Source of the DNA: Parcubacteria group bacterium GW2011_GWA2_47_21
GTDB taxonomy: Bacteria > Patescibacteriota > Minisyncoccia > Phycocordibacterales > DSPV01
NCBI GenBank assembly: GCA_001000545.1
Contig: LCOC01000002.1
Coordinates: 1 to 36,998 of the forward strand
Direction of reading: 5' to 3'
Length of the DNA: 36,998 nt
Each line of letters starts with the position of its first letter. The stretch's first letter is position 1. The notes under the pieces are model-generated. The model was given only the letters and a program-made list of their open reading frames with translations. It did not search any database and had not been told where the DNA came from. The translations under genes were made by a program, and so were the position numbers. Positions 31,119 to 32,934 of this stretch are shown here, one piece after another.

Positions 31119-31149
31119 ACAAAAAACCGCCCCGAATCAAACGGGGGCG
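31119..31149 (-). terminator. rho-independent terminator (minus strand)
   Basis: Reverse complement CCGCCCCCGTTTGATTCGGGGCGGTTTTTTGTT. Confidence 0.85.
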
Positions 31150-31577
31150 GCGCTGACGTTCACCGAAATATTGACGGAAACGCCTCCTTTCCTGGCTCTC
31201 TTGGTTCGCTTCACCTTGAGGGCGGAACGCTTCGGCGTCTTCTTCTTTGCTACAGAAAAACTCTTCTCTTCAACGCCTGGGGCGCCTTTCTCCCCTATCT
31301 CAAGTTCTGCCAAAGGAATCGGCCGGGCCGGCTCATCCGGACCAATTTGGCGGAAAGGCAACAAAGGCAGCTTGAGACGGATTGCCTCTTGCATTAAATG
31401 CTTAAGGCCTTCTTCGTTTTGGAGCAACCACATCTCTCGTTCGCCCGTATCGGTCTTAACCTCTTCCAAGGGCTCCGCCCCTTTACTGTTTCTGAAAACA
31501 AAATCGTTGGCAAGCGAGCTTTGCGGCTCCACAAGCCACCTTGTGGGCGCTTGGCCTTTTTCTGTTGTTTTATTCAT
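31137..31577 (-). CDS. hypothetical protein with a Lys/Arg-rich C-terminal region
   Basis: 146 aa; KKKTPKRSALKVKRTKRARKGG; terminator overlaps its 3' end. Confidence 0.6.
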   Translation of the reverse strand: MNKTTEKGQAPTRWLVEPQSSLANDFVFRNSKGAEPLEEVKTDTGEREMWLLQNEEGLKHLMQEAIRLKLPLLPFRQIGPDEPARPIPLAELEIGEKGAPGVEEKSFSVAKKKTPKRSALKVKRTKRARKGGVSVNISVNVSAAPV

Positions 31578-31630
31578 ATAACCTCTCCTACCAGAGTATG
31601 CTTAATCGTAAAAAAATCAAGCTATTGCGC

Positions 31631-31660
31631 TTGGTCAAACTTTTGCTATTATCCTATAAT
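31631..31660 (+). promoter_or_regulatory. sigma70-like promoter
   Basis: TTGGTC (31631-31636), 18-nt spacer, TATAAT (31655-31660); about 25-30 nt upstream of the structured region. Confidence 0.65.
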
Positions 31661-31894
31661 GCTTGTTGGCTCTTTAAAAAAGAAATGATGACTTTTGAAC
31701 TCCGGGATAGCAAAGCGGTGGAGTTGAAATTTGCTAAAAGCACACAAACTGCTTTGTGTGCGGGCAAATTTCAAAGCCGGAGTATGTTGATATGAGCACA
31801 TAGCAACAGCGAGGCGGGGTAGCGGCTTTTGTGAGGCGACGGCCGAACAAAAAGCTGTGACGCCGCCTACTGAATATAAAAATGATTTGTAAGC

Positions 31895-31966
31895 TCCGCG
31901 GTAGCTCAGCGGTAGAGCAATCGCCTGTTAAGCGATTGGTCGCTGGTTCGAATCCAGCCCGCGGAG
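31895..31966 (+). tRNA. tRNA-Asn (anticodon GUU), no encoded CCA
   Basis: Full cloverleaf: TCCGCGG/CCGCGGA acceptor, GCTC/GAGC D stem, ATCGC-CTGTTAA-GCGAT anticodon arm, GCTGG-TTCGAAT-CCAGC T arm, discriminator G. Confidence 0.97.
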
Positions 31967-31989
31967 CTTACAAATTATTCCTCTCCTTT

Positions 31990-32010
31990 TTAAGCGGTTG
32001 GTCGCTGGTT
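31990..32010 (+). repeat. partial duplicate of tRNA-Asn anticodon-to-T-arm segment
   Basis: TTAAGCGGTTGGTCGCTGGTT versus tRNA TTAAGCGATTGGTCGCTGGTT (31928-31948), 20/21 identical. Confidence 0.9.
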
Positions 32011-32220
32011 GAGGCGCAAAAACATGTAGCGCCGAAAGACCTTTTGAGATATTTTTGAGCCAGCGAAATAAAATATCCAAAAGGTGTACTGCTCCTGTAA
32101 GGAGAGAATCCTGCTCCCGGAGTTCAGAAGTTATTAGACGCAGCCGTTTTGATTTATAAGTAAATATTGTTACGCTAGTGTTTGGAGTCCGTCGCAATTA
32201 TTAAATAGATAAAAAAATTT

Positions 32221-32934
32221 ATGTCTGAAGAAACAACAGAAAGTCAACAGGGGGCGACGAAGAGGCGGGGTTCATTGTTTTTCAAACTCTTCGTATTTAT
32301 TGTTATTGCGGGAGTGATTGCCGGCGCGGGATATTTTTTAGTGAAAAATGGCATTGGCGGCAGTAACCAAGCGGTCGCTATGGTGAATGGCGAAAAAATA
32401 ACGCGAACGGTCTACGACGAGCGTTACGCCCGACTTGCCGCGAGCATCACCGCCCAAGGACAATCAGCGACCACTACCGAAGCGGTAGCCGCGATAAAAA
32501 ATCAAACATTGGACAATCTCATCACAGAAACCTTGATTCTTAAAGCCGCTGAAAAAGAAAATATAAAAGCCAACGAAGAAGCGATTAACACTCAATTAGC
32601 CCAAAGCAAATCGCAATTTGCCGACGAGGATACTTTCGCAAAAGAACTAACCGCCCAAGGATTTACTGAAAGCACTTTCAGGAAATTCTTAACTAGAAAC
32701 AACATCATTCAGCAGTATCTTGCGGTTCATATTGACATAAGCTCGGCGACGGCCTCGCAAGAAGAAGTGACGGCTTTGTATAATCAGGCGGCCGCCGGCA
32801 ACGCAAATATTCCGCCTCTCGCCGAAATCCGCACTCAAGTTGAAAATCAAATCGTGCAAACGAAACAACAGCAACTTGTCACAAAATTCATTGAGCAACT
32901 CAAGGCCTCAAGCGTGATTGAGACCTTAATTTAG
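32221..32934 (+). CDS. SurA N-terminal-like chaperone/PPIase-family membrane-anchored protein
   Basis: TM LFVFIVIAGVIAGAGYFLV followed by VAMVNGEKITRTVYDERYARL...LDNLITETLILKAAEKENI. Confidence 0.85.
   Translation: MSEETTESQQGATKRRGSLFFKLFVFIVIAGVIAGAGYFLVKNGIGGSNQAVAMVNGEKITRTVYDERYARLAASITAQGQSATTTEAVAAIKNQTLDNLITETLILKAAEKENIKANEEAINTQLAQSKSQFADEDTFAKELTAQGFTESTFRKFLTRNNIIQQYLAVHIDISSATASQEEVTALYNQAAAGNANIPPLAEIRTQVENQIVQTKQQQLVTKFIEQLKASSVIETLI

Follow-up and report, generated by a model that had tools for sequence, protein, structure and literature searches.

The 451-nt stretch at positions 31686–32136 of the window (the whole 36,998-nt stretch of DNA that was analysed) is a composite, in which a module termed R2, an intact tRNA-Asn and a module termed R1 lie inside a broken second copy of tRNA-Asn. 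The locus is probably best explained as a duplicated tRNA-Asn, the outer copy of which has served as scaffold for two small mobile elements, R2 and R1, which are structured, occur dispersed and are attached to helices of host RNAs, with the intact tRNA-Asn in mid-locus. The components of the locus are as follows.

31686–31707, + strand: 5′ arm of the closing helix, made up of the leader (31686–31700) and the acceptor 5′ strand TCCGGGA (31701–31707) of the outer tRNA-Asn copy (pairing; comparison with the inner tRNA-Asn arm)
31708–31723, + strand: D-region remnant of the outer copy, TAGCAAAGCGGTGGAG, the counterpart of which in the intact tRNA is TAGCTCAGCGGTAGAGC (sequence comparison with 31902–31918)
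31724–31774, + strand: stem TTGAAATTTGC/GCAAATTTCAA enclosing the hairpin AAGCACACAAACTGCTTTGTGTGCG at 31738–31762 (fold; similar hairpins beside this genome's tRNAs)
31773–31862, + strand: R2 module, three-way junction GCCGGAG-hairpin-CGAGGC-GGGGU-hairpin-GUGAC (40.8 bits, E 4e-11, with a covariance model built from ten loci, the window excluded)
31881–31901, + strand: extended helix of the inner tRNA-Asn, leader and acceptor 5′ arm (21-nt inverted repeat with 31959–31979)
31895–31967, + strand: intact tRNA-Asn (GTT) (ARAGORN; RF00005, 74 bits)
31959–31979, + strand: extended helix of the inner tRNA-Asn, acceptor 3′ arm and trailer (21-nt inverted repeat with 31881–31901)
31990–32010, + strand: second copy of tRNA-Asn positions 31928–31948 (anticodon 3′ arm to T-arm 5′ strand), 20/21 identical (direct repeat)
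32007–32105, + strand: R1 module within the T-loop of the outer copy, with hairpins H1, H2 and H3 and the order GAAAGACC-H2-GGUGUACUG-CUCC UGUAA GGAG (covariation; 110.8 bits with the R1 model, the window copy being among its 17 building sequences)
32106–32121, + strand: T-arm 3′ strand and acceptor 3′ strand of the outer copy, GAATCCTGCTCCCGGA (comparison with the 3′ end of the intact tRNA)
32115–32136, + strand: 3′ arm of the closing helix, made up of the acceptor 3′ strand and trailer of the outer copy (pairs with 31686–31707)

Because the pieces of the second tRNA-Asn surround the intact one, the closing helix is identified as the acceptor stem of the outer copy lengthened by pairing of its leader with its trailer. 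In the outer copy, the 5′ half of the anticodon arm is missing and the T-arm contains a T-T mismatch. Were the interior removed like an intron, the outer tRNA would still be without its 5′ anticodon arm, and the locus has an intact copy besides.

The helix itself had been reported in a first-pass annotation of this DNA as 22 uninterrupted base pairs with three G.U pairs in the + sense and further GCA/TGC pairs past a 2-nt bulge, and it was found exactly so (31686–31707 with 32115–32136; 3 of the 22 pairs are G.U). It is the longest helix spanning at least 100 nt in the region 31501–32300, and it lies beyond chance, since the longest helices in 100 dinucleotide shuffles averaged 12.8 bp and did not exceed 18 bp. 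The predicted fold of the 451-nt stretch, in which the closing helix is formed, has an energy of −205.8 kcal/mol (z = −11.9 versus shuffles), in keeping with the strongly structured interior that had been described, and the earlier statement that no credible ORF is present also held, as no supported ORF was found in the stretch. An ORF of 146 aa upstream of the locus (window 31137–31577, minus strand) gave no Pfam match. The TATAAT sequence proposed as a promoter is indeed situated at 31655–31660, with a 10/12 promoter match, but it constitutes weak evidence for a promoter because chance alone would give 1.3 matches of this quality in the 1 kb scanned.

The inner tRNA-Asn has an extended helix of its own, of 21 bp and of the same kind as that of the outer copy. 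When the two were aligned from the acceptor outwards and their pair lists compared by hand, 14 of the 21 aligned pairs were identical, six differed by double compensatory changes, one had gone from A-U to G-U, and none was broken. With seven of 21 pairs changed and none lost, it is apparent that the closing helix has been kept through change. The two helices would seem to have been kept able to form side by side, since identical arms would cross-pair, and the compensatory changes suggest selection on the composite. These changes are between paralogues within one genome; the search of 98 relatives gave no orthologue of the unit as a whole, so that the covariation proposed earlier as a check on the helix was seen between the two tRNA-Asn copies and not between orthologues. 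A closing helix as a general trait of tRNA-Asn was also considered and rejected, strong pairing of leader and trailer being found at only about 3 of the 31 tRNA-Asn loci examined.

An alignment of 17 R1 copies contains three helices, all of which covary, with double changes in 16 of 25 pairs. Double-changed cells numbered 42, versus 12 in shuffles, and slid controls gave far lower values. The core consists of GAAAGACC, the long H2 hairpin, GGUGUACUG and a short hairpin with the loop UGUAA, the stem of which varies freely (CUCC/GGAG, AGCC/GGCU, UUC/GAA). The ends of the module are TGAG and TGTAAR, and the arms beyond differ by host. In the R1 helices read on the + strand, the ratio of G.U to A.C was 80:24 in the model-fitted alignment and 11 to 6 in the unfitted one. 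This excess is consistent with folding of the + strand, the sense that had been favoured in the first-pass annotation; it fits RNA and single-stranded DNA alike.

With the covariance model, five R1 copies were found in the window's own genome, and matches were present in 155 of 297 genomes of the order, which is presumed here to be GTDB order UBA9983_A. Among 380 genomes sampled across the phylum, matches occurred only in members of the order (10), under stricter filters that may have missed weak, distant matches. Copy number ranged from 8 to 22 per genome in ten genomes searched with looser filters. The named genomes recovered in a pattern scan included Paceibacterota and Nomura-, Taylor-, Kaiser-, Zambryski-, Lloyd- and Vogelbacteria, among others. 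A phage-borne origin of R1 is argued against by the viral search, in which no exact match of the 23-position pattern was found in 2.9 million viral contigs. At one locus (L175, about 405–501), an R1 copy is followed just downstream by a partial R1 copy in the opposite orientation, the two forming a palindrome.

The R2 motif, GAAAGACGGAG-hairpin-CGAGUC-GGGGUCG-hairpin-CGUGACC, was first noticed beside tRNAs. It too covaries, with 53 double-changed cells versus 16 in shuffles, including GAC/GUC, AGC/GCU and GGC/GCC swaps. Its distribution is phylum-wide (48 of 362 genomes, other classes included), and of 20 R2 loci fetched, 16 contained at least one tRNA gene and one contained a tmRNA. In the latter (L361, minus strand, from another class of the phylum), R2 lies directly 3′ of the tmRNA (1635–2017) and has a T-arm-like closing stem. 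Hairpins of the kind found at 31738–31762 precede R2 modules at other loci as well. R1 and R2 are different modules that occupy the same slot. With their conserved junctions and permuted open ends, both bear a resemblance to small ribozymes. A possible third module in that slot, GGGAAGGGGTCGGGAAACGGGAGTTTCCCGTGGAGGAA...GAAACCGTGGGTTTC, was observed at L318, L329, L338, L231 and L234.

The association of R1 with tRNA genes is pronounced. An intact tRNA was situated within 200 nt of 49 of the 99 distinct R1 copies, against a background in which about 4% of the genome is within that distance of a tRNA, and in 48 of these cases the two were on the same strand, in one on opposite strands. The common layout is an intact tRNA followed by a hairpin, an antisense copy of the tRNA 3′ end, the module and a sense copy. 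At 41 loci with a tRNA upstream, the antisense copy was present in 33 and the sense copy in 26, the cut-off for both being a score above the 95% level of mismatched pairs. The antisense arm reaches the T-loop and in some cases also extends through the trailer, over as many as 27 aligned nt. At L343 (tRNA-Gln), L113, L039 and L257 the module has a T-arm strand on each side, with an acceptor strand and then a hairpin before the first and an acceptor strand after the second, and at L363 and L365 the sense copy extends through an encoded CCA.

Antisense copies were also found at 40% of tRNAs without R1, versus 2.8% for mismatched pairs, in fetched loci that had partly been chosen for the module. 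For that reason the count over whole genomes is the fairer one: a strong antisense arm was present at 13 of 32 tRNAs in genome G104, at 4 of 37 in the window's genome (none of them the window's own tRNA-Asn) and at 1 of 53 in two genomes of the same class outside the order. The last two figures speak against the arm as a universal trait of tRNA trailers. Of 36 positions at which the sense copy and the tRNA differ, the antisense arm fits the tRNA at 32. Compensation between the antisense arm and the sense copy was not seen; it is the intact tRNA that the arm follows.

Near-identical R1 cores were found at tRNA-Asn in G044 and at tRNA-Glu and tRNA-Gln (and near tRNA-Trp) in sister species, with arms that in each case match the local tRNA. 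As the cores are alike and the arms come from each site's own tRNA, the arms appear to have been made new at each site. The arrangement is not found at the same tRNA across sister species, and turnover is high.

Hosts other than tRNA genes were also found. Fifty R1 copies are not near tRNAs, and most of these have no flanking repeat. In an alternative layout, seen for tRNAs, 5S rRNA and a uvrD-like helicase, a partial copy of the 5′ part of a gene is followed by the module and then by the intact gene. The module at L045 is situated in a 5S-like copy between 23S and an intact 5S rRNA, and R1 copies were found at the ends of uvrD-like (L169) and rpsI genes, as named from their translated sequences. 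In two species, a gene identified from its sequence as mnmA (L117:2003–3199 and L145:100–1299) contains R1 in antisense and in frame and is otherwise intact; the insert in MnmA amounts to about 35 residues encoded on the R1 antisense strand.

Direct signs of mobility come from comparisons between copies. Two loci of one genome, L231 and L232, share 138 identical nt, and L232 contains two further R1-type units where L231 has none, i.e. nested insertions with empty sites. Other pairs of R1 copies are 94–100% identical over 120–200 nt and have unrelated flanks. Target duplications at R1 are variable or absent, and fixed terminal inverted repeats were not seen. No Y1 transposase (Y1_Tnp) was found in the copy-rich genomes G013, G041 and G034, from which such an enzyme could have been lost or in which it could act from elsewhere, and no reverse transcriptase (RVT_1) was found in the window's genome (G000, 73% complete), G013 or G014. 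Neither enzyme seems to be needed at present within a carrier genome, since G013 has 18 R1 copies and neither of the two was found there. Y1 transposases of 220–260 aa (the size of RAYT proteins) occur in many genomes of the order, with up to 11 per genome, apparently without relation to R1 copy number.

These observations may be accommodated as follows. R1 and R2 would be three-way-junction RNA modules of about 80–110 nt that spread through the order or, for R2, through the phylum, and settle at helix ends or loops of structured RNA genes, above all at the tRNA T-loop. A host helix, either the acceptor and T-arm or an antisense 3′-end copy with a second sense copy, would then close the module, and one intact copy of the gene would survive. 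The spread is more plausibly selfish than a result of recruitment. The arms may arise at landing, by target duplication together with fold-back or template-switch copying at the conserved T-loop sequence GTTCRA, rather than by slow evolution, and the folds would matter in RNA, in that the neighbouring tRNA or rRNA stays able to fold. The data directly support the structure of the modules, their covariation, their dispersal in many copies, the clean nested insertions, the match of arms to tRNAs and the restriction of R1 to the order in the sampled genomes.

It is on the covariation, the copy numbers, the L231/L232 pair, the arms matched to each local tRNA, the antisense and sense copies at loci with a tRNA upstream, the strand agreement with neighbouring tRNAs, the 5S, uvrD-like, rpsI and mnmA sites, the closing-helix compensation and the excess of G.U over A.C that the preference for mobile elements rests. 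Against it, no transposase or other partner was found, even with 18 copies in G013; the R1 copies away from tRNAs mostly lack a flanking repeat; and the compensation in the closing helix, as noted above, suggests selection at the level of the composite. A purely selfish element is further opposed by the antisense arm, which stays complementary to the intact tRNA even where the sense copy has decayed. The same arm is central to a less likely account, in which the modules act as cis-acting folding switches on tRNA genes. Two pairings would be open to the arm. In one, it would join the 3′ end of the new tRNA over 20–24 bp and spoil that tRNA; in the other, it would join the sense copy downstream and so close the module. 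The choice would lie with the module, possibly aided by a ligand or protein, and would thereby set the amount of mature tRNA. Such a switch would suit the reach of the arm to the T-loop and trailer, its fit to the tRNA where the sense copy differs, the single slot shared by R1 and R2, and the reappearance of the R2 arrangement next to a tmRNA and in further classes of the phylum. It accords poorly with the modules' lack of amino-acid specificity, with the minority of tRNAs in G104 and in the window's genome that have a strong arm, with an arrangement that sister species do not keep at the same tRNA, with the copies at 5S rRNA and protein genes, and with the window's tRNA-Asn, which has no strong arm. 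That the Patescibacteria possess a phylum-wide class of such cis switches, the module fold deciding whether a new transcript becomes a tRNA or a dead hairpin, is more doubtful still.

Three further explanations are improbable. The acceptor stem and T-arm might have been copied to give a tRNA-like decoy or minihelix RNA, in which the module substitutes for the T-loop and a hairpin for the D and anticodon arms; this RNA would be released and recognised by tRNA enzymes. The layout at L343, L113, L039 and L257 matches this idea, as do the sense copies that include the encoded CCA, but half of the R1 copies are not near tRNAs and many copies lack a full acceptor stem, and the idea is given little credence. 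Quite improbable, too, is a decaying tRNA pseudogene accompanied by ordinary repeats, with no selection on RNA. The defects of the outer copy and the high turnover between sister species would be expected of decay; against this stand the unbroken closing helix, with its seven changed pairs, and the covariation of both modules. Strongly disfavoured, and the least probable of all, is a single large, ornate non-coding RNA of the kind represented by GOLLD and ROOL, which are large and structured and often lie near, or sometimes contain, tRNAs. The first-pass annotation had proposed a previously undescribed large RNA here. The structure is real, and the Rfam scan it recommended returned only tRNA (RF00005) at gathering score and nothing else credible to E 10 in 31600–32240; the long closing helix with its compensation, the very stable fold and the enclosed tRNA would also fit one RNA. 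However, the interior consists of a tRNA and two separately dispersed modules, and 98 related genomes yielded only tRNA and separate modules, never the whole, so that what had been taken for one conserved RNA is a composite. In Rfam searches of other copies, to E 1 or 0.5, only tRNA, 23S and 5S rRNA, tmRNA and chance matches appeared.

With mobile elements as the preferred reading, the nearest described kind is the small palindromic repeats that insert into protein and RNA genes, such as the Rickettsia palindromic elements (RPE). These small MITE-like repeats are found between genes, in frame within protein genes, and inside tmRNA and M1 RNA (Delihas review, PMC2229807). Like them, R1 and R2 are strongly base-paired, on the scale of the 100–150 bp or so of such elements, and present in many copies both between genes and within protein and RNA genes; for R1, near-identical copies, filled and empty sites and insertion into protein and RNA genes were found, whereas fixed inverted repeats and a short target duplication were not. 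R1 and R2 are set apart by their occurrence in another phylum, their different sequence, a branched junction with conserved unpaired bases, and arms that copy the neighbouring tRNA 3′ end in antisense and in sense in place of a fixed terminal inverted repeat. REP/RAYT elements and non-autonomous IS200/IS605 copies resemble them in being small hairpin elements with orientation-specific insertion and no terminal repeats, but in several R1-rich genomes no Y1 transposase was found.

Other tRNA-associated systems are more distant. From GOLLD and ROOL the locus differs in having no Rfam match at a useful threshold and in being composed of small dispersed modules. The RtT repeats after tyrT in Escherichia coli lie downstream of a tRNA and carry a copy of the tRNA 3′ end, but they have no antisense copy and no branched module, and are found at one locus rather than genome-wide. 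T-box riboswitches share an RNA folding logic that involves tRNA; they reside in mRNA leaders and read the tRNA in trans, whereas R1 and R2 are placed in cis after tRNA genes and show no amino-acid specificity, and no T-box match was obtained in the Rfam scans. No account of such elements in CPR bacteria was found in the open-access literature.

R1 and R2 are two strongly covarying families absent from Rfam and present in many copies in very small genomes, where such a load is unexpected. The antisense and sense copies of tRNA 3′ ends imply a route that none of the enzymes tested explains. If selfish, the modules would represent a new way for a tiny element to inhabit RNA genes without killing them; if functional, they would add a hitherto unrecognised level of tRNA regulation in a large lineage that has hardly been studied. 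The locus is also a caution that large RNAs predicted near tRNAs can be nested accretions of small ones.

A different kind of interruption was observed at another tRNA-Asn (L346, about 1500–1960, in genome G278). ARAGORN detects no tRNA at that site, where the anticodon loop is split by roughly 350 nt that resemble a group I intron and include a P7-like pairing, GACTA/ATATAGTCC.
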